From NCBI GenBank assembly GCA_019096065.1, contig JAGUCH010000001.1, positions 14,942,001-15,006,000 on the forward strand: a stretch of 64,000 bases of DNA, in the 5' to 3' direction. A model generated the notes under the pieces. The model ran no database searches. It had not been told where the DNA came from and saw only the letters and a program-made list of their open reading frames with translations. The translations under genes were made by a program, and so were the position numbers. The first letter of the stretch is position 1; every line of letters begins with the position of its first letter. The stretch comes from Paracyclopina nana. Lineage: Eukaryota > Arthropoda > Copepoda > Cyclopoida > Cyclopettidae. This document shows positions 8,600-58,500 of the stretch, piece after piece.

Positions 8600-10499
8600 A
8601 TGTTCGGGTTCAAGACGTTCTTTTGGGGCCTCTGGGCTTTGAACGTTGCAAGAGCTAACTCCATTGAGCCTGAATGTGGGGACTTCTTGATCAACAACTG
8701 CCACTTTGATCCAGGCGCTATTCTTGATGCCCTGGACTTGGAAAGCGAGCAAGAATGCCAGTTTCTCTGCCAGATCACGCAGGATTGCCAACTGTTCCAC
8801 TACAACAAGTATCAGAGCTATTGCTATTTGTTGAATCAGACCCTTGGGTCGTACATGGAAACATGTCGCATTTTTGGTGGACCTGATCATCCTGATATTG
8901 AGGAATGTTTCAACCAGATCAAAGTTGACTCGTGCCTCCAAATCAGAAATGCATTTTGCATGCCATTAGGTATAACTTGAGTATAAATAATTTGCAGCGT
9001 TTAATGGAGACTCGCTGCTATAGGGTATCACTTGGAGAATTTGCAGCATATCAATAGTTACCATGTGTGCCAATCTGCATGCAATTTGGTTGACAGGTGT
9101 TCGTTCTTTATCTACGATTTGGATCAGCTCAACTGCGAGTTGATCGAGGGTCGTGATGCTCAATGTGATATTATGATTGGGCCACCGCAACCTGAAGTGG
9201 ATTATTGTTTATACGGAAATACTACAACTTCTTCATCCACTTCTACGACAATTACAACTACTGATCCCACCACATATTCGCCGACAGAAACTACGACAGA
9301 CACTACAACTGAAACCACAACAGACACTACAACAGAAACTACTACAGACACTACAACTGAAACCACTACAGAAGCTACTACAGACACTACAACTGAAACC
9401 ACTACAGACACTACAACAGAAACTACTACAGACACTACAACAGAAACTACTACAGACACTACAACTGAAACCACTACAGACACTACAACTGAAACCACTA
9501 CAGACACTACAACTGAAACCACTACAGACACTACAACTGAAACCACTACAGATACTACGACGTATACTACAACGGATACAACTACGGATACTACAACAAC
9601 TGAAGCTCCTGAAAGAAATATTATCCAAGTGCTTGTTATTGATGCCCTCAATGGGAAAGTACTGAAGGAGGCCAGGCTCACTTCAATGAACGAAAATGGC
9701 GACACTCTCGAGGTTCAGTACACAGACAACAAAGGATATGCAAATTTGGGACCCTATTTAGCTGATATGGTGGTCACGATCAAATCAGAGTTCTATGGAT
9801 TCTACGATCGCGTAGAGGTCGTAGATTTAGGGGAAGAGAGTCCGGGCGAGGATTCCGTCGTAAGAATGATCATCGCAATGGCACGCAACCTTGAACACAA
9901 AGAGGTCCTCAGGCTTGGCTTCGACTACGAGAAGGACAACTTGCAAAATGTGAAGCTGCACGCAGTCCAATTTGACAAGAAGCACCATTTCATTTGCGAT
10001 ACATACAAATGGTGAGACTAAATTATACATGTACCTTTTTTAATGTGACAGATAACAGAATTTGCGCTTTTATAAAGGCATGAGACTTGCACTGATATGG
10101 AATTCAGTGCCTTTGAGAGGCAAAATCACGAATTTGATACAGTGACCTGGTACAAAGGCCATCACTTTGTAGCGCGAAGGCACAAAGAAGAATGGACTTT
10201 GATTTATGTATTTTATGATCTCTATTGGCTGACTCCGTTAATTGACGCAGTTTTTACACTACACGGGTAAATAATCCCATTGAAGCGAGAAATGCCATAA
10301 TTTTCTATTTGCTGCATTCTTTCGCAGAGATCACGAAGATGAGGCAATGGAGCAGGCGTTTGACCTCACCAATGGAATCAACAGGCATTACTGGGTTCTT
10401 GGCTGCCTGAAAAAAGGCCACAAGTTCAAAGATTTCAAGTTGATTAATGAGTATACCAACTCAGATCCGAAAGCCAGCTCCAAAGTCTATTGCCACTAA
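8600..10499 (+). CDS. Secreted PAN-like-domain protein with Thr-rich (mucin-like) repeat
   Basis: Exons 8600-8969, 9024-10011, 10078-10266 and 10328-10499 join in frame into 572 residues. An N-terminal hydrophobic stretch ends in ...LNVARA and looks like a signal peptide. Two Cys-rich modules follow, each with the pattern of PAN/apple domains (EC-x3-C-x5-C spacing around residues 28-105 and 125-190). Residues of about 205-325 are almost entirely Thr with Asp/Glu (TTTDTTTE-type units), probably O-glycosylated. The last 240 residues form a separate globular-looking domain beginning near NIIQVLVIDALNGKVL, with Trp, Cys and charged residues and no family I recognise. The ATG at 8600 was chosen because it directly precedes the signal peptide. 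Likely an extracellular adhesive or lining protein; the function is unknown. Confidence 0.82.
9227..9604 (+). repeat. Coding minisatellite (24-base ACA-rich units)
   Basis: Tandem 24-base units of the type acagacactacaactgaaac plus ccta, roughly a dozen copies with small differences, flanked by more degenerate ACA/ACT triplets. They encode the Thr/Asp/Glu repeat of the PAN-domain protein. Near-identical adjacent units suggest recent slippage or unequal exchange, so length should vary between individuals. Confidence 0.9.
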
Positions 10500-42260: not shown

Positions 42261-45200
42261 TCAAAAAACTTCATCAGAGTGAATGTATTCCTCCGCTGGT
42301 CGGACATACTCTGTGATGGCTGTGATCCAAAAGATGATGTTAAATGTGACATACAGCACCACATAAATGACTTTTCCTATTGCATTCCACCATATTGCAG
42401 TAGCAATGGCAGCTTGATGCTCCTGCTCTTGTTTATGGGGATCCTGGTCATAAGACCTGTTGCCCCTTCCACTCAATCCCATGGCAGTTTGAGGACGAGA
42501 CTCTTGCACAAGCAACGTCGTGGAATTACTCACAGAATTGCCCTTATTGTTATGGCCACCCAACCTTGCCAAAAAAGATTTGTCTGATAAAAGCCTCAGT
42601 GGCCTTGATCAGTGTTAACACGGTTAATATACTTCTATTTTTGTGAAAGCGTGCAGGCTCGCAAATTAATGCATACTTACTTTTTCTGACCTTTGGATAT
42701 TATATGGGCTAGAAATGTGTGGAATGCCATGGTTAAAACCATTATATTGAGGGACACCAAAAGCCACCAGTCAATCAATTTGTAATATGACGTTTTTGGC
42801 AAGCTCTAGAAAGCGTAGAATTTCTTTTCTGTCGTATATAATGCTCCATTCACTCAAACATGAATGTGCACCAATGAATGTTTAAGTGTACCCAAAATTA
42901 CGTGACTTGTGAAAAGTGGGTTAATCCTTTAGTACTCACATCTTGGATGGCAGTAGTGATTGTGGCAACCACAAGCATCGTAGTCAATACTACCATAACC
43001 CTATCACTGAAATTGTCCACATCAAAGTAAAATGACAGGTAGCCCACACAAGTCAGAATGAATGTTTGCAAAAACGTATTTGTCACGTGGAACTCCATAT
43101 TTCGCCTGAATACAAACTTGACCGTGCCTTGGCTGATGTTCTTCACCGAGGTGAACAGAATGGCCTCCATCTGAATTTCGTACTCAACGAGCTTTCTGGA
43201 TGACAGAAACTCAATGCCAGGCTGATATGCTTTGGCTAGTTTGACGTAATTGTCCGTTTTTCCTTGCACCTCAAAGACCATTGTGCAAACTTGAGTATCA
43301 AACGGGTAGTAAATGAGATCAAATTCGCAAGCGTATTCCTGGTAGTATTCTCTCGTCAAGTAGATGGCGTTTGTTCTCCCGGAAAACAACATGGCTGCAA
43401 AGAAGCATGGAAAAATCAGCCGTATTTAGTATACGATATGATGTCCAGTATGGTGATATCTAATACCTTCAGTGGATAGTGTAATATCTTCTGGCAATGA
43501 ATCATCCTCCCTTATGAGGACTCCAGATGTAAGCTCGTCCACTTGGGTCTGAAATAAGCAAGATTAGAAATTAATTCACTCAGATTATGGTAAGTGCTCA
43601 CTTGAAAAGGCCCTAATGCATTTGTGAAGCTTAATTTCGGTGTCCAAATCACGTCTTGATCTTTTTGGCTCAGAGAATTCAGAGCCGTCACATTGTTCAA
43701 ATCTCTGTACTCAATTCGCAAATCATACCACTTCAAGTTGAGAAAGAAGTCAGCAGTGAACTTCAAATTGACAGTTTCAATGAAGGGGAACGCGAGCACG
43801 GATACACTCATGTACACCACTAAAGGTCGGCCACTTTCGTCCCTTGGGATCAGCTCTTTTGCGTAATTTTCGCCAAACTTCAGGTAGTCGCAGTAGTATT
43901 CGTCCGATTTGTCGAAGCAGTCGATTTCAGTATTGCATTTATCACTATTATAATGCAGATTAATATTTATAGGTGTTTTTTAGTTAGTCGCACAAATGGA
44001 ATGCAATACATACCTGAGGTCGATACAGTCACCGTTGTTGCAAGTGTACTTATTGGGAAAGCATTGGGACATTGTTAGCTCTAGAATTTCGCCTTTTCTC
44101 AACTTGCACATGGTATCATCTTCACTCAACTCCCAATCATGAGTACCAATAGGAAGATCCTCTGGCAGCCTCGAAACTGTCTGAATGTATTTGGTAGCAT
44201 TTCGCAACGACTGTAGCCGCCATTTGAGCGTAGCTCGGTCGAAATACATCATGCTATTTTGGGACCCTCTAAAAAGGGGCTTTCCATTTTTGGTGCCATA
44301 CACTCTAAAGTCAAAGTCAAAGTTGTACTCCACATCTTTTGCGCACACGCCTTTCAATAAGAGCCTCTTGCCAGCTGGCAATTTGCAGAGGCCACATGGA
44401 AACCGCTCTGTGCAAGCCATCTTTTCGACTCGATCACCAAATACAAAGCCACAATCATAGTTGGTAATATCATGATAATAAGTCGTAATGTTGGGATCAA
44501 GCAGCCAGAATTTCACTTTGTCTTTGCCAGCTGCGCAATTGTCGTAATAATTTCCAGTTGTGAGAAACCTGAAAAATGACAAAAGTACCTTTCGTTAGGC
44601 GATCTCTAGACACGCTCGCAAACCTTACCTTTTAAGGGCAACGCTGTGAATGTCAGCCACGTTTTCTGATACAGACAATTCTGGCATCACCCCATCCATT
44701 CTTCTGCAGTAATCCGAGATTTGCACGTACGTCACGGATTCCGCCCAAATGAGGTAATTCATTAGCGAAGAGCCCCTGCAGAAATCGCCAAGTCGCATAT
44801 TTCGCTGTTCCACTGCCATGGTGGTCCATTCATCCAATGATTCATTCCACGTAGCTATTTTGGAAAAGACAAAGGCAGTTTCTTGTTCACAAGAAGCAAT
44901 CGCTTTTATAGTCGTGGCATCAAGTTCAATATCCCAAGCTTCCACTTGAGCAAGCTCTCCAGAAAAGGCCTGATTTTCATCAAAGAACCCTCCCAAAGAG
45001 TCTTGTTCTTGACCTAGCACCAAAATTCCATTTCTACTGATGGGCAAATACTCTTGACTTTCACCAATCACAATTTTGTCTGGAATGCAGTTAACTACAG
45101 TTTCGTGGCTAAAATGAGTAATTTTAGCATTTACTAAGTTTGACCAAGTCTCCGTCAAGGTAAAGCTTCATTTCGATAGATGTACCATCATCCGGAGATT

Positions 45201-46523: not shown

Positions 46524-46999
46524 ATGAACAGTCGAGTAGGGTCACTCTTTCTGATTGTTTTTGCTCTGACCCCAATTTGGGGCCAGCCCATGAGGGCTAA
46601 GGGATACTATGGGCGAACCTTCAAATGGCGGCCCTTCAACATGATCCAGAGCAGCCCTCAAGATACCAAAGAACCTGATATAAACTTGGCCATGAACGTA
46701 AGTTGGCACAAACGTTTACCAAGAATTCATAGGTCAAACTTGTATCCATTCATTAGTTAAACTTGCACCCCTTTTAGGACTTGGACAAGGCTGGAGAAGA
46801 GGACATCCAAATTCCTGGACAAATGTATGAGCTGGAAGGATTCATGAATGAGCTCAAGAAGAAATTGAGGAGGGAAATTGAGTCACTTCTTCAGGAGAAG
46901 GCAGAGGAAGATACACTCGAAGACTGGTCATTCTCCTTGGGCACACAATCGGAGGAAAAGAGAAAAATTGTCCCATCTCAGCTATTGAAAATGATTTGA
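46524..46999 (+). CDS. Small secreted protein, possible peptide precursor
   Basis: Exons 46524-46697 and 46778-46999 (GT...AG, phase 0) give 131 residues. Residues 1-21 (MNSRVGSLFLIVFALTPIWG) form a clear signal peptide. The mature N terminus reads QPMRAKGYYGRTFKWRPFNM, basic and aromatic. The second exon encodes an acidic amphipathic helix-like region (LEGFMNELKKKLRREIESLL). There are no cysteines after the signal peptide and no obvious amidation site, so whether it is a hormone precursor or a structural secreted protein cannot be decided. I know no family match. An ATTAAA at 47077 is a likely polyadenylation signal. Confidence 0.65.
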
Positions 47000-48979: not shown

Positions 48980-49983
48980 ATGTTGACTCAATCCACAGCT
49001 ACGGCCATTATGCTAGGCATTTTTGGTGTTAGTGGAGTGGTATCTTCATTCCTTTGCTTAATTTACATAGTCTATAGACTGAAACTAAACCACTACATCA
49101 AGCGAATCCTTCTCGCGCACACCGTGCAAAATCTCATAGCGCAGCTAATAATTGGCTGCAGTCTCGTTTTGGTGCTTGCTTTTCGCATCCAAAACTTCAC
49201 CACGTGCTCCCTGTTTTATGGGCCCGTCATAGTGACACTAACAGGAGGCCACATTATGGCTGCTTTGATAGCTGTGATTAGGTAATTCAAAAGACTTACG
49301 AAAAACTGCTTGAAAGTTTAACAGTGCTCAATTTCAGGTATCACATGGCCTCAAACACTGCCAATAACGTCAATATCAACCACCAGTACATTGACATCCT
49401 GACCTTCGGTGTCATGGTGGGTCACTTCATTTTGCATGTGGTCTTCTTCACACTGAATGGAGTTCTGCCGAATGGAGTCTACTTGATGATTTCCAATTGT
49501 GCACGAATAGAGAATGGAGGGAACAAGGAAATTCTTGGAGCCCACGTCATCTTGATTATGGCTGCATTGGCTGTGGGCACACTCTATGATGCCAAAATGG
49601 TGAAACTGGTGAGAGCCCAGGCCAAGGTTGAGCCCATTAGGTTGGTATCATGGCAGCCTCCCCGAAGAACCCAAAATGACTCGCAGGAAATCAAGGATAC
49701 GATTCCAGTCAATGCTACCATTCTGTCATCTTCAAGCATGGTAGCGAACTTGATCATCACAGGATTCCTGTACAAATTGAACGTGGCCTCGCACATAGTG
49801 GTCCTCACAATGGCTTTGATGCTGTGGTCCATCATTCAGATGCCTCTGATTTTGAGCCTAACGGTGAAATCTCAGCATAAGAAAACAGGAGCAGCAAGGC
49901 CAGAAATTCCACGGAGTCTCCAATTCCATGAGAGAGATGAAGATGCTTCGAGCAGAGCCACACAAAGTTCACCTCGATACTAA
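48980..49983 (+). CDS. Orphan seven-transmembrane receptor (divergent, rhodopsin-like)
   Basis: Exons 48980-49281 and 49338-49983 join in frame (AG|G, Arg) into 315 residues. Seven hydrophobic helices are visible at about residues 8-31, 42-66, 76-100, 120-143, 161-186, 240-258 and 265-285. Helix 3 ends IRYHMA at the place of the DRY motif, with only the Arg-Tyr kept. Cys77 at the top of helix 3 and Cys in the loop after helix 4 could form the usual disulphide. The N terminus is very short, the tail basic then Ser-rich. I cannot assign a ligand or subfamily. The single intron falls right at the RY motif. Neighbours include two small secreted protein genes, so peptide sensing is conceivable but unproven. 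Confidence 0.75.
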
Positions 49984-51010: not shown

Positions 51011-52701
51011 ATGTCAAGAGCGGCCACATTTTTCTGCTTAGCCATTGGCCTCACCAAAGCCTTGGGGATTTTCGATCCTCTATCCGAAGAATTTTTGGTG
51101 GACGAAGGTAGAAACGAGATTCTCCCTCCCAATTCTGTCACTTATGACGATGCTCATGCGAACCCATGCCCTCAGTTCGAGTATCCCATAATCATCCCTC
51201 CCTCAAGGTAAGTAAAATGTATTACTATTAGCTGAGACGGCTGAGCAGTACATAAGCTCCGACCTCATAATTTCCATGATGCTCTTTGATTCGCATGATG
51301 ATAATGAACATTATCCATCTACAAGTGGATAATGATCATTATATCTCAATTGATCTGTGCGCCATCTATTTCATATCCGTATAAAAGAAAAGGCAGCAGA
51401 GGGTGGCAAGAATCGAACCTGGGTCAGCCAATTAAGGCGCCGAAGCTCTACCACTGAGCTATCAGTTTAACCATAAAATTAATGCTGTGCTAGCTGTAAT
51501 AAAGAGGCTAGACTGATGGGCCAACTAGCGAGCGCAGCAAAAACATGGCCGTACGGGCCGGCGCGGCATGCTGGCAAGACGCAACGGCGCAACTGGCGCA
51601 TGTTGATGGCTAGATCGCTGGGTCAGCTTTGATGAGCTCACGTTTGCTATCTGCAATAGGGCGAATCGCAAAATTTAAGGCATATCTTGCAAAAATCATG
51701 CCTAAAAAACGTTCTTAAATTTAATATTAGCCAATGCTTGAAATGTTGGGGGGCAGCTAATAGTAATAGGATTATACACCTCTAGGCTGTCGGATAACAC
51801 TCATTATTTTTTAGCGTCGCGTGCCAATCACTCGTTCGCTCCGCTCACTCGTGATCTGTCACTTGACGCTAAAAAATAATTCGTGTTATCCTCCAGCCTA
51901 GAGGTGTATAATCCTATATTGTAAGTAAAATGTATTGTAGGCATTTTCCACTCCAGAGCATTGCCTAACTTTAGGCATAAAAGTTCGTGCCGTGCTGAAT
52001 GCAACCATGTATGTCCGGCTATTAAATGCTGGCTGATTTGTGACATTATGTCGTCTCTTACTTTTAGCTTTTGTCTGATTCATAGCATAGCCAGAACAAT
52101 ATAAAAGTCTTTGAGCCACACTCAGTTGACCAATTCAAAGGATTCTAGAATTTAGTACTTTAAATTTTAAAAGTATAGATGGAAATGACGAATGAGCAAT
52201 GATGATCTCCATGGAATCGTCGTTTCCTTGGCTAACTTACTCTCTTTATGAAATGTTTTATGGCTCAATTATACTTGCCTAGTCAAAACCCTCAGAGAGC
52301 ATCTAAGCATAGCAATTCTAAGTAGCTCTTCTACCAGCATTGTATTCATTCGAGTTCTATTTAGGAATTCTTTGGGTAACCTGTTCCAAAATTTCGGAGA
52401 GATGAGTTTGAAGGCGAAACGCTACAATCCACTTGTTCGCCCTTGGCCAAAACGCTACAACCCTCTAATTCGCCCTTGGCCGAAAAGTGACGAAGGATCG
52501 CAGAGTAAAATCGAGGCTACAAAGTCAACTGACCTTGTGAATATTCTGCCAGATGGGGATGTGTGTTTGGTGGGGAAGAAACTGAATTTCCGCATCCCAA
52601 TGCAAGGCTCCGGAGGATTGTTTCCCTACGTGGTGGTTTTGAGGCGTTTACTGCATCGGATTTGCCCTCAAAATGTAGGATGTGTGATCAATCAGCCCTG
52701 A
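51011..52701 (+). CDS. Secreted precursor with two KR-flanked YNPL(V/I)RPWP repeats (candidate neuropeptide precursor)
   Basis: Exons 51011-51207 and 52365-52701 are joined in frame (AG|G) across a 1.16-kb intron; 177 residues. An N-terminal hydrophobic segment (ATFFCLAIGLTKALG) is a plausible signal peptide. In exon 2 an 11-codon unit is repeated in tandem at 52417-52449 and 52450-52482: KRYNPLVRPWP then KRYNPLIRPWP, followed by K. The Lys-Arg pairs are classical convertase sites and would release nine-residue peptides starting with Tyr. Of five base differences between units, four are synonymous and one is Val/Ile, so the peptide appears to be under selection. A later GKK (amidation-type site) and RR occur. 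One Cys in exon 1 and three in exon 2 could form disulphides. I know no family with this motif. ATTAAA at 52786 may end the transcript. Convergent with the TRPA gene. Confidence 0.7.
51400..51468 (-). repeat. tRNA-like sequence (SINE head or tRNA pseudogene)
   Basis: On the - strand, an A box TAGCTCAGTGGTAGAGC (51445-51461) and a B box GGTTCGATTC (51410-51419) are spaced as in tRNA genes. The anticodon arm reduces to GCC-TTAATT-GGC, the T stem has mismatches and no acceptor stem forms, so it is not a working tRNA. RNA polymerase III promoter boxes without tRNA folding are typical of tRNA-derived SINEs. Confidence 0.6.
51766..51917. repeat. Long imperfect foldback at the end of the insertion
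   Basis: Arms 51766-51789 and 51894-51917 are a perfect 24-bp inverted repeat (ATAGGATTATACACCTCTAG and on). The next ~27 bases of each arm match at all but two positions. The loop is about 60-70 bases. MITE-like. Confidence 0.75.
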
Positions 52702-52771: not shown

Positions 52772-52853
52772 ACACACGTACTATAATTAAACTATGATAT
52801 CAATCCTGAACTTGTTAATAACGACCACACAGTTACAGTAGTACTCATTAAAC

Positions 52854-55579
52854 TCATGTGCTAACTTTGCTTAGTAGCATATTAAACGTTTCTCTCTCCT
52901 CTTCGGCCACCAATTCAAGAATTATTTTTTTGGCCTCCGAATTGATGGACTCTTCTGTCACGAGCACATCTGAATTCGGGGCAATTTTACCTCTGCAAAA
53001 GATTTTTTGAAATGTTTTCTTGATCGAAAACGACCTTTTTCTGTTTGGATAGAGGACTAATTTGCGACTGTTTTCATTAGCAAACACCTTGAACCTCTTG
53101 CCCCAGCGTAGCATTTTTTGGGTGACCAGGAACTCTTCGATGTAGTTGATTTTCACCATCATTTCCATCCACGTGAGATCAGAAGAGGCGTTGGATATTT
53201 CCTGAACGTCCATGAGAGCCATGCCAGTTAGCAAATTCATCATCACAAGCACGATGAAGTAGACAAAAAACAGAAATGTCAGGTGGTTGAACACCAGAAA
53301 TTTTCCACTCTGGAACGGGAAGTCTCCATATTCCAGTTCACCAACAAACATTGCAAACGTTTTTAATGGGACTCTGTAGTAAAAGTGGAAAGGAGACTCG
53401 GATTCCTGCTCGTGGCCATGCTCGTCCAAAAAATCATCATGCAGTTGGATGTAAAACGTTAGCATAAATCCTAGCAAGATGATGACATGCACCTAAAAAA
53501 CAAAAAAATTAAAGACATACGTATTTTGATTAAAAATCTCTGATCCTCTTACTTTGAAGAAGTTAAAAATAGACCTTGAGACCACTTCAGTCCACGTTAT
53601 CATGGCAGCTAATGTTCGGTTGGTAAGGTGATTTCTCAGAATGAAGCAAATATCAAAACAAGCCACGAGGATATAGAATCCTGATACATCCCTATTGAAG
53701 GGGTCATTTGATTTGGTACAAATCATCAAGGGAACTATAACGAGGTTGTTACAAGCTGTGAGCTTGGACTCTCCTTGCTCCCACACCGTCCCCCAATTGC
53801 CCATTGTTATGCTCATGTCCTTCTTGGCCAAGATCATGAGGATGAAGCCACTTCTTAGCAAATTGAGAATCCACGAGCCCATAAATAGGAGCCATGAATA
53901 ATGCCTGAACGTGTCCGGGCAGCAGGTTCTGGAGCAGAATAAGTTTACTGATGCACCTGTTGTCTTTGTGCCCTCGTCGTAGTTGCAATAAAGTGATGCT
54001 CCTCCATACGCTGACATTACATATGCAATCCCACAAAGGTGCTGGAGTAATTTGATTGCCGACAGAACGACGAAAAACCTCCATATCTTTTGCCATTTCC
54101 GCCTGCATAGTATTTTTGTCGTAATTCAATTTTTGATGGCACTTTAATTAATAAGGAGCAGTAATACGAACCAAATTACAGAAGATATAATAGGATGGTC
54201 AAACAAATCCCTGTGGACATCTTTGATTCTGCCAAGATAGTCCAGCTCCGGAATGTTACGACGGGATTTCGCCTGTTTCTGTTCGTCCAGAGTCATCATC
54301 TCCATATCGCAATCTTTTGTTTCGTTCAAATGAGGAAAAAAGTAATCAGTTTGAAGAGTGAGCTTGAAATCAGCCCTCGTCGTCAATCCTACATGAGAGA
54401 AACAATCCCTTCTGTAAAAGAGGATTAACTGATTCTACTTGTAAAGGTACCTTGGAAATGGATTTGCTTGTTCAAAAATTCCCTCACTGTTTCGGTGTCC
54501 ATATGGCTAATTGGAATATCCTCATTTTTATTCAAAACAAAGAGACTTTTTTCTGCTCCATGTTGAAGTAGAAGTTTCGCCAGAGCCTGGCCATGATGCT
54601 CAGTGGCATAATGCAATGGTGTGTTTTTCCTAGGCAAATCTTGGTCATTGATAAGCTTGGCAATTTCCACCTTGGATCTCGTTGCAAAAAATTGCTCCAG
54701 CATGGTATAAGTGTCCGTCAGCAAATTCCAGTCAATCGCTTTTTCAGCCCAATCAATGGCCTCGTCGTACGCCTTTTTGCTAGCAATCAATGCATGCAGG
54801 ATATTCATCGACTTTCCAGCATCAGGAAATATCTTCTGAGTGATGTTCAAGTCACCTCTCGCGATTAGCTTTGCAAAGACCTCAACTCTTAGATTCGTGG
54901 CAGCCTCAAAAACAGGTGGATAAGGATTGGCATTTGAGGCCAAATTGACGTCAATATGTTCTTCATTTAGAAGGTGAAGGACAGTTTTCGTGGAGTTCAG
55001 TTTTATTGCGTATTGCAGGCAAGTTCCATGTGGTCCTTCCATGTTCACTTCATGTGGCTTCATGTTATTTCTGATCCACTCAACATCATCATTGGAAATG
55101 GCTTCCCATACCATTAATGAATTGCCTCCAGTAAACTTTTGCAGGTACTGAATGAGGCTCTCATTTTGCACGCTTTGGGCTTTATCAAGTGCGGTCTCCC
55201 CAAATTGGTCAATCGCACCCAATTCCAGCTCAACAAAGTCCTCCAGAAATCTGAATGTAGCAGTCACCTCTTCTTGGCTTTCCCTATTCATTGCGAGTAA
55301 ATGGTGGGGAAAACGTTTACCCGAGTCTCTTTGGTGCCAGAGTGAACTGAGATCAGAGGTTGCTTGTGAAGCTTCTTTTACCAAAAATTCAAGAATTTCC
55401 CTATGGAAGTGCTCACACGCCATATGGAATGAGCTCCGGACTTTGAGGTCATTCCACAAAAAAGCCGGATTTTCTCCATTCGGTTGAACTAAGGATTTGA
55501 CCAGGTCAAAATCCTTCTTTTTAATTGCACTGAACAGTGCGTTCATTTTGACTACACTAATTTTATCAACTTCCTTCAT
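52854..55579 (-). CDS. TRPA-like ankyrin-repeat cation channel
   Basis: Four exons on the - strand: 54451-55579, 54172-54388, 53553-54102, 52854-53492; all phases consistent; 844 residues. Residues 1-380 contain ankyrin-type repeats (for example TPLHYATEHHGQALAKLLLQ). Six membrane helices follow from about residue 440: S1 near WQKIWRFFVVLSAIKLL, S2 near SWLLFMGSWILNLL, S5 near VIILLGFMLTFYI, S6 near FFVYFIVLVMMNLLTGMAL. The pore loop reads FAMFVGELEYGDF, and the GE(L/I)xY/F form is typical of the TRPA subfamily (TRPA1, painless, pyrexia). The C-terminal cytoplasmic tail is about 120 residues. Probably a plasma-membrane sensory channel for heat, irritants or touch; the exact member cannot be named. 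The ATG at 55579 opens the frame; no upstream in-frame exon was found. Confidence 0.88.
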
Positions 55580-58500
55580 GACGATAACTGAATCGTATTA
55601 TAGTCAGAGGAGAAAGGTTGCGAGACCGCGGAGAGAATACTTCCCATTTTATGCAATGCATTACGAATTTTCTCGGAAGTTCTGGCACCAATTTACTCAA
55701 ACTGACGTTTTTAGCCTGAAACTGTCAGGTTTTTCAACTATTCGAAGGACAAAGTAACAATTATCGAGAGGTAGGTTTTTGTTTCGTTTTTCCCGAGGAG
55801 CCATCGTGAAATTGTGATTGGCCACCCACATTGAGTCGTCACAAGTATTTTTGTCACTGGTGGTAGAAGCCATTTTTGTGCCCCCTGCAGTGCATTGAAA
55901 AATTCCACTGGAAATCAGGAGTGAGCACGCGATGAGATTTCGTATATAGAAGTAAACTAGCATATAATGGTGTCGTTGGACCGCAAACTTTTCAACGGTA
56001 ATTGACTCTGCGCGATGGATTTTGAAGTTGTTGCAATTATGCTGCGTTGTTGGTGAGCTCTGATTCGGCTGAGCAATTTCACTCTAATGATATTTCACTT
56101 AAGCTTTTTTTTATCTGCAGAAAAAATCCACTACTACTATGATGATGAGTAGCTGTTAGTAGCTTCAAACGAAGATCAGATTGAGTCATGCTCCGCTAAC
56201 TTCTGCATTCAACCTCTCGTTGATGATTCACGCATGCTACGTATATAGTCATTTCGACGTGGTACTACTACATAGCAGTAATTTTTTAAATTGGTTCAGT
56301 TGAAAATGTGCCTTTATGTGGCCTAGATATTTCATAATTACCATCATCTTGGCAGTGAGAGTCTTCTTTGTGAAAGATTTATTATTTTCTGTTTAAAATT
56401 CGCTATTTGACATCAACTGAAAAACTGCTAGCATGAGTAGAAGTGACCATATCTTTAGACTTGTTGTAGCTGATAGAGTACGTTGTTTTGGTTTGCTGAC
56501 AGCAGCTGCTGAAGTTCACTGAATGAGCAAGAAATAGTAAGCCTCAATGTGGCCACTGCTACTACATGTGATGCTCATTAACCATTTGGGAGTGTTATGC
56601 AGAGAAGAGGCACCTGCAACTTCATCAGTCAGCAGCAAACCACGGCGTGAGTTACTGGCCAAAAAGCCCTGTGCTGATTGATGAGGTGCGGGCAGGGAGC
56701 AAAACTATCGAGCCACAACGTGGGTAAAGGTCTATTTACTCCCCAGAATGAACTTGCAGCTTCCACATTGAAGCATGACCCCTCTTTATACCACCATCGT
56801 TTCTGCGCCTTCATCATCCAGCTCTGAGGTCCAGAGTCATTCAGTTCATTCAGCAGAACTCTCGGCTAGCAAAGGTAAACGTGACAACGGCAATAATTTC
56901 TGACAGAGCTTATTTGCAGCATACTACCATATCGAGTGAAACCTCTAATTATTAGCAGGGACAGATGGAGCCGTAAATGAAGCATATGCATGTAATGAGA
57001 CCGGTTTTTGGACGAAATGCAAGCGTAATTATCGTTGGTAGCCTAGTCGTATACTATCTTCTCTAGTTGATAATGTAATTTTGCCGTTGGCCATTCACAC
57101 TTCTCACACTTGGCATGGCATTCGGAATGCCAAGACAAATATGGCTCTTTTTCCTAATAGATGAGTATCACGACTGTAATGCGCCTCTAATGTGAGCAAA
57201 AAAACTACCTCGTGTTTTTTCAATTCGTGTCCTCAAAAATCCACTTTAGCTTTTTGCAGGCGCTTTTTGTCGTTCAAAACAGATCTAATGCATATCTAGC
57301 TCGTTTACAGCCCTGTCGTGTCGACGTTGACGCAGGCCAAGCTAATAATTGGTACAAAATCACCTTGACAGTAAAATTGTGAGAATTCGATCACCAGTTT
57401 TTCTACCTGTCTGCCTTGCTGCATGCTGATCAGCAGAGGCCAGAAATGCACAAATCTGTCGAGCTCAAGTAGCTTTGGGTATAACCACTTGTGAAATATT
57501 CCAGAAGCCACATCCACTCGGCAAAATATGAATTTTATCTGGCACGAGGCTTCTTTGTCTCTATAGTTCACCTACAAAACGAAGAGTTATGGTTTCAGAT
57601 GATAAATACAGATAAGAGACTCCCATGCTGAATAATGGGAGCGCAAAACAGGATATTATTTTTCACTAGTTCAGATTCCAATCTCTCTGCTGCGGAGCAA
57701 AATGGCACAAAATAATCAATCAACTTTGGCAAAATACTAGTAGTCATGGTATTGCAAGGAGAGGGCCTTGACTTTGTTTTACCTTGGCTGCTGCTTCAGA
57801 AAATTGCCAAAGAAAATTCACTAAATATTTCTGCTGTGCTGTGCAGTCTATTAAGGCATAGTTGATAGAGTGCGGTGTGAAAATGTCAAGCCTAGATAGT
57901 TATGATAGCTCCTTATCACTCTCCTCGCCAAAAGTGGCTTTCTACATGCAAGCGCGTAGGATTTGAATTTACATGCTCTTATGCACTCAAAGCAGGTGTG
58001 CTAATTGAAAAATTACTCTTACGACCTTGTGAATTTAATCACCACCGTGGTGGTGGTGCAGTACCTCCCGCTAGAGGCTCATTATTATCTTTCCTCATTG
58101 CGCTTAATGTTCATTAATTATGGGAAGAGTCGGTAGAAGAGCAATTTTCAGCCCATTTTCGAAAGAAGGTCAGAATAGGCAAATCCCCTTTTAAAGCCTA
58201 GAGAAAACACAACGCAGATGAGGGGAGGAGAAAATTGAAAGTTGACAATATGGTGTGGAGATATTTTGTGCCAAGCTGCATACTGTAGTCGTATATGCCT
58301 ACATCATCGGTGTAGTGATGAGTTCACTCACATTTCTGGAGAGAGAAGCAGCAAGGCACTGCTATCAGCTGATCAGTAGGCGCGAGCCGCGCGCGCCAGT
58401 GCGCACCACCATCATTGTTGTTGGCCACTGTGCTCACGCAGTTTCAGCATTCAGTACTGACTAGCCCGGCATCAAACTCACAGCGTATTAAGCACATCAT

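Follow-up and report, generated by a model that had tools for sequence, protein, structure and literature searches.

The tandem repeat

A 64,000-nucleotide stretch of the Paracyclopina nana genome (contig JAGUCH010000001.1, positions 14,942,001 to 15,006,000; hereafter the window, whose coordinates are used throughout) contains two adjacent and nearly identical 33-base units in an open reading frame, which raises the question of whether this locus encodes a secreted precursor of short peptides and, if so, what such peptides would do. Short of even confidence, we tentatively propose that it encodes a convertase-processed secreted precursor whose nonapeptide acts as an extracellular signal (hormone or neuropeptide), and that this precursor is the product of a single-copy, perhaps lineage-specific gene.

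Translation of the forward strand, exactly as first described, gives KR-YNPLVRPWP for unit 1 (52417..52449) and KR-YNPLIRPWP for unit 2 (52450..52482), which differ at 5 of 33 bases, four of the changes being synonymous and one exchanging valine for isoleucine. The description of both copies as KR-bounded, however, holds for copy 1 only, since copy 2 is preceded by KR but followed by K-S (AAA AGT, 52483) and has no dibasic end. TRF, which along with translation delimits the units, reported an array at 52417-52486 (period 33, 2.1 copies) with a score of 105, the second highest in the window after an array at 9284-9598. When the window was dinucleotide-shuffled 40 times, no shuffle reached this score and the highest was 59.

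The intactness of the encoded peptide had been ascribed to purifying selection. In simulations of five random changes (three transitions and two transversions, as observed; 40,000 trials per base unit), at most one amino-acid difference arose in 1.9% of trials starting from unit 1 and in 2.1% of those starting from unit 2, and translation in the remaining five frames gives 2 to 4 residue differences between the units, as opposed to one in the coding frame. This synonymous bias is real (about 2% of trials) and speaks for a repeat that is translated and under constraint. It concerns one pair only, however, picked after the fact because it was striking, and the case for selection is suggestive.

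Gene model and codon use

The repeat belongs to a plausible two-exon gene on the forward strand with a predicted product of 177 amino acids (51011-51207 joined to 52365-52701). Exon 1 (51011..51207), delimited by translation, hydrophobicity and codon score, starts with an ATG and a signal-peptide-like sequence (MSRAATFFCLAIGLTKALG, then IFDPL...) and continues into an acidic pro-segment with one cysteine. The intron (51208..52364, GTAAGT...TTTAG), recognised from splice signals and genome comparison, carries a 701-bp repeat insertion at 51220-51920. Exon 2 (52365..52701, from translation) comprises the repeat module, a spacer and a C-terminal part with three cysteines and the dibasic sites KK and RR, and ends in the stop codon TGA. 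The reading frame is preserved across the junction between the donor (AAG/GTAAGT) and the acceptor (TTCTATTTAG/G). An ankyrin-repeat gene on the opposite strand (52854-55597), its last frame ending at 52854, converges on the precursor gene to within about 150 bases of its stop codon, so that exon 2 probably terminates the precursor gene. A candidate poly(A) signal, ATTAAA, lies at 52786..52791 on the forward strand, with others at 52847 and 52881, each a short motif only.

Codon use agrees with a gene but does not prove one. In a comparison with held-out exons and with controls of equal length containing no stops, exon 1 scored 0.129 per codon. It outscored 17 of 31 held-out coding chunks and every one of 2000 random open frames, but 56 of the 275 other open stretches in the window did as well or better. 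Exon 2 (0.076 per codon) exceeded 6 of 15 held-out chunks and again all 2000 random open frames, and was matched by 35 of the 68 other window stretches of equal length. In both sets, the other stretches may include genes not yet recognised. Frame totals were obtained with a codon model of eight exons of the window in which one training stretch ended in a stop codon, a stop left out of the comparison above. They were +8.4 for exon 1 against -6.1 to -17.4 in its five other frames, and +8.5 for exon 2 against -13.6 to -31.0 in its five; a charge of -5 for each stop in the other frames explains some of this difference. Taken by themselves, the 22 repeat codons scored -6.4 in their own frame, and three of the five other frames scored higher (-1.7, -1.1 and +3.0).

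The hydrophobic N-terminus has A-x-G ahead of the presumed cut, and 30 of 258 ATG-started open stretches of at least 40 amino acids are equally hydrophobic. A secreted transcript joining 51207 to 52365, as the preliminary description had it, is plausible given the splice signals, the frame, the hydrophobic start and the exon-like codon use, although many open stretches of the window score alike.

Predicted processing of the precursor

We infer that the gene would be transcribed, its product secreted and cleaved, and a resulting peptide received by a receptor. In the proposed scheme, the signal peptide would direct the 177-residue protein into the secretory pathway, proprotein convertases would cleave after two KR pairs (residues 84-85 and 95-96), and subsequent removal of KR by a carboxypeptidase would leave YNPLVRPWP with a free C-terminus. 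Since copy 2 is followed by K-S, a clean second nonapeptide requires a cut at a single lysine; YNPLIRPWP would be released if the lysine before the serine is cleaved, but copy 2 would more likely yield a longer peptide extending to the next dibasic site, the glycine-preceded KK at 137-138. Dibasic sites occur at residues 84 (KR), 95 (KR), 137 (KK) and 159 (RR). In the translation, no amidation glycine precedes the KR or K at the end of either nonapeptide, and the only glycine ahead of a dibasic site is that of DVCLVG-KK. Cysteines beyond the signal peptide are found at residues 53, 133, 166 and 172, the last two of which could form a short ring close to the C-terminus.

Searches for related sequences

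Within its own genome (92 Mb in 10 contigs), no second copy of the gene was found: searches at E values up to 10 returned nothing beyond its own two exons. Eighty matches of the cuticle family PF00379 over six frames, a family that marks arthropods, fit an arthropod genome. A pattern of the NPLxRPWP type occurs in this genome at both copies and at one site on contig C9, which reads NPVERPWP. The 177-residue protein matched no Pfam family at E values up to 10 with the HMMER filters on. Against PDB, from which chains shorter than 20 residues were excluded so that short antimicrobial peptides could not show up, the protein and a 35-residue piece containing the repeat each gave one weak match (E = 1.5 and 0.67, respectively), which we consider due to chance. 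Searches with exon 2 found 1 pattern-matching stretch in viral and 38 in prokaryote contigs, none confirmed by tblastn, and are uninformative for relatives. A search for the insect odorant-receptor family gave no match and is likewise uninformative, since the control genomes gave none either.

The view that YNPLVRPWP and YNPLIRPWP represent an undescribed family agrees with searches of open-licence PMC papers, a collection that leaves out many crustacean peptidome papers, in which neither nonapeptide was found. RPWPKR and fragments of the nonapeptides were not found there either, and a search of the neuropeptide literature therein for RPWP matched metalnikowin-2B, in PMC9315633.

A proposed hormone or neuropeptide precursor

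The proposal of a secreted signalling peptide draws on the in-frame tandem duplication in which four of five changes are silent, with copy 1 enclosed and copy 2 initiated by KR. It also draws on splice signals that connect two frames with exon-like codon use, and on the number of dibasic sites, four against 1.76 from shuffling (P = 0.057). The predicted protein resembles arthropod neuropeptide precursors in its signal-peptide-like start, its tandem near-identical short peptides, its KR sites and the silent differences between copies. Unlike them, it has no amidation glycine, its copy 2 ends in K-S and it matches no named family. The nonapeptides have proline at position 3, a feature counted among the N-terminal patterns for mining cnidarian neuropeptides in PMC6756747, where it is combined with a C-terminal Gly-Lys/Arg that the nonapeptides lack.

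The preliminary interpretation as a neuropeptide precursor is sustained in so far as a secreted, spliced precursor is plausible. Its neuropeptide function is not established, because the nonapeptides lack an amidation glycine, copy 2 does not end in a dibasic pair, and proline-rich antimicrobial peptides, too, can contain RPWP with a K or R after it. Were the peptide made, an arthropod lineage would gain either a proline-rich peptide without amidation or a new antimicrobial lead, and both predicted nonapeptides are short enough for immediate synthesis and testing. If it were absent from relatives, the gene would be a lineage novelty of modest interest.

A possible proline-rich antimicrobial precursor

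The strongest rival, which we regard as possible but rather doubtful and rank slightly below a hormone or neuropeptide, is a proline-rich antimicrobial precursor from which an acidic pro-segment would be removed at KAKR, leaving a cationic 21-mer rich in proline, arginine and tryptophan that would act on bacteria either whole or as its halves, perhaps at the ribosome or DnaK by analogy with known members. According to Box 1 of PMC7736402, the definition of proline-rich antimicrobial peptides includes at least 25% proline, a net charge of at least +1 and antimicrobial activity with an intracellular target (DnaK/70S), and a PRP motif is indicative but not essential. The uncut 21-mer (29% proline, charge +5) and each nonapeptide (33% proline, charge +1) fall within the proline and charge parts of the definition given in that box, and the 64-residue pro-segment has a charge of -7. 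However, the repeat contains no PRP motif, and the KR within the 21-mer would split it into nonapeptides with a charge of only +1.

In the tables of PMC7736402, sheep OaBac6 contains three copies of RPWPK, and metalnikowins 2A, 2B and 3 contain RPWPR. Like the repeat, these metalnikowins (YRPRPWPR) and OaBac6 have a K or R directly after RPWP, a proline content of at least 25% and a net positive charge; the repeat differs in having no PRP motif and in being splittable at KR, and the comparison is one at the peptide level with a predicted product. The best alignment to 25 proline-rich antimicrobial peptides, hand-picked from the tables of PMC7736402 (Table 2 holds 55) and not including metalnikowin-3, was equalled by 0.4% of 500 shuffled queries (P = 0.004). 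By contrast, the best score against 30 arthropod neuropeptides was no better than that of shuffles (P = 0.96), but the two comparisons are uneven, as the neuropeptides are shorter and the best antimicrobial match is mammalian and repetitive and comes from 25 hand-picked entries. Since this match, OaBac6, is mammalian and itself RPWPK-repetitive, the resemblance is convergent at most.

As described in PMC3415428, ants have repeated antimicrobial units spaced by dibasic sites, with the units of hymenoptaecin separated by RR or KR and one intron in the pro-region, and bee apidaecin also consists of repeated units. Hymenoptaecin and apidaecin precursors therefore resemble the predicted protein as secreted precursors with repeated peptide units. 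Unlike the present sequence, from which EAEP-type spacers are absent, hymenoptaecin has EAEP spacers and units of 97 amino acids, six of them in Camponotus (PMC3415428).

Less likely readings: an uncut protein, several products or a mistaken gene model

It is unlikely that the product is instead an uncut protein, secreted or at the cell surface, whose duplicated segment stays in place as a linker or structural repeat with incidental KR pairs. The number of dibasic sites fits such a protein, being only marginally above expectation (4 in 158 residues, including both KR pairs of the original finding, against 1.76 from shuffling; P = 0.057), as do the absence of a clean cleavage end in copy 2 and the fact that most of the 158 mature residues, among them four cysteines that possibly form two disulfides, lie outside the repeat. 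Against this, both units start with KR-Tyr, a plausible convertase site, and the proline-rich repeat is probably exposed.

A hormone precursor could also be richer than proposed above: as an improbable elaboration, we consider a new arthropod prohormone with several products, the founder of a peptide family not met with in searches of open-licence PMC papers, namely YNPL(V/I)RPWP, an amidated ...DVCLV peptide ahead of KK and a disulfide-ring peptide after RR (LLHRICPQNVGCVINQP). For the last of these, the cysteine spacing of the C-terminal CPQNVGC equals that of CNAFTGC in CCAP. We treat this as a lead only, since the remaining sequence differs and the ring here has no amidation signal. The canonical CCAP coding pattern FCNAFxGCG has no exact match in the 92-Mb genome, and CCAP is consequently unusable as a control for the ring; the CCAP gene may have diverged, contain an intron within the pattern, lie outside the assembly or be missing altogether. 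We also considered whether the C-terminus is related to Trunk/PTTH cystine-knot ligands and rejected this, since its cysteine pattern does not seem to fit theirs.

Finally, it is very unlikely that the gene model is wrong, with exon 2 joined otherwise or the frame a fossil or chance open frame: no homologue was found in the genome, Pfam or PDB, long open frames are not rare at the base composition of the window (a stretch of at least 149 codons is present in 27 of 400 random 3-kb sequences), many other open stretches have codon scores as high and a repeat element has inserted at the now duplicated splice donor, but the silent-site bias between the units, the canonical in-frame splice sites and the codon scores of both exons, which lie in the range of held-out exons and exceed those of every one of the 2000 random open frames, argue against it.

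The intron repeat element

The 701-bp element within the intron (51220-51920) has 61-nt inverted-repeat arms near one end. Its relatives in the genome comprise at least 112 matching pieces, with 40 of 208 candidates scored, and at least 28 matches, the window copy included, cover all or nearly all of it. A 16-base direct repeat (GTAAGTAAAATGTATT) that holds the splice donor flanks the element at 51208-51223 and 51921-51936, so that GTAAGT is present at both 51208 and 51921 with the original donor intact. This direct repeat has the look of a target-site duplication, but the flanks of two other copies support this unevenly. The copy at C1:14321893, whose 100% identity suggests recent movement of the element, has no such direct repeat at its flanks, and the second has a short one, ATTTTA. 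By eye, a tRNA-like stretch lies at about 51400-51465 on the minus strand, and ARAGORN reported no tRNA in the window.

Neighbouring genes

The gene at 48980-49980 has a seven-transmembrane appearance by eye, and neither of its two exons matched a Pfam family above the cut-off. It had been suggested as an orphan receptor on which the nonapeptides could be tested. Its exon 2 matches 43 places in the genome, its own locus among them, and a single gene may in some cases account for two of these places; the nearest other match, on another contig, is 54% identical. Because the gene belongs to so large a family, adjacency is weak evidence for a ligand-receptor pair.

A second small, secreted-looking protein of 131 amino acids (MNSRVGSLFLIVFALTPIWGQPMRAKGYYGRTFKWRPF...), from two exons joined by eye, is encoded at 46524-46999. 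Pfam gave it no family above the cut-off, a genome search found two other places that match it weakly and in part, and one frame of its exon 2 had a codon score of +14.7. The converging minus-strand gene at 52854-55597 combines ankyrin-repeat exons with an ion-transport match (20.8 bits against a Pfam cut-off of 25), and its domain order points to a TRP-like channel. Also on the minus strand, at 42898-45167, are exons for a pentraxin domain, an LDL-receptor class A piece (below the Pfam cut-off) and the ligand-binding domain of a Cys-loop channel, which perhaps belong to one chimeric ligand-gated channel.
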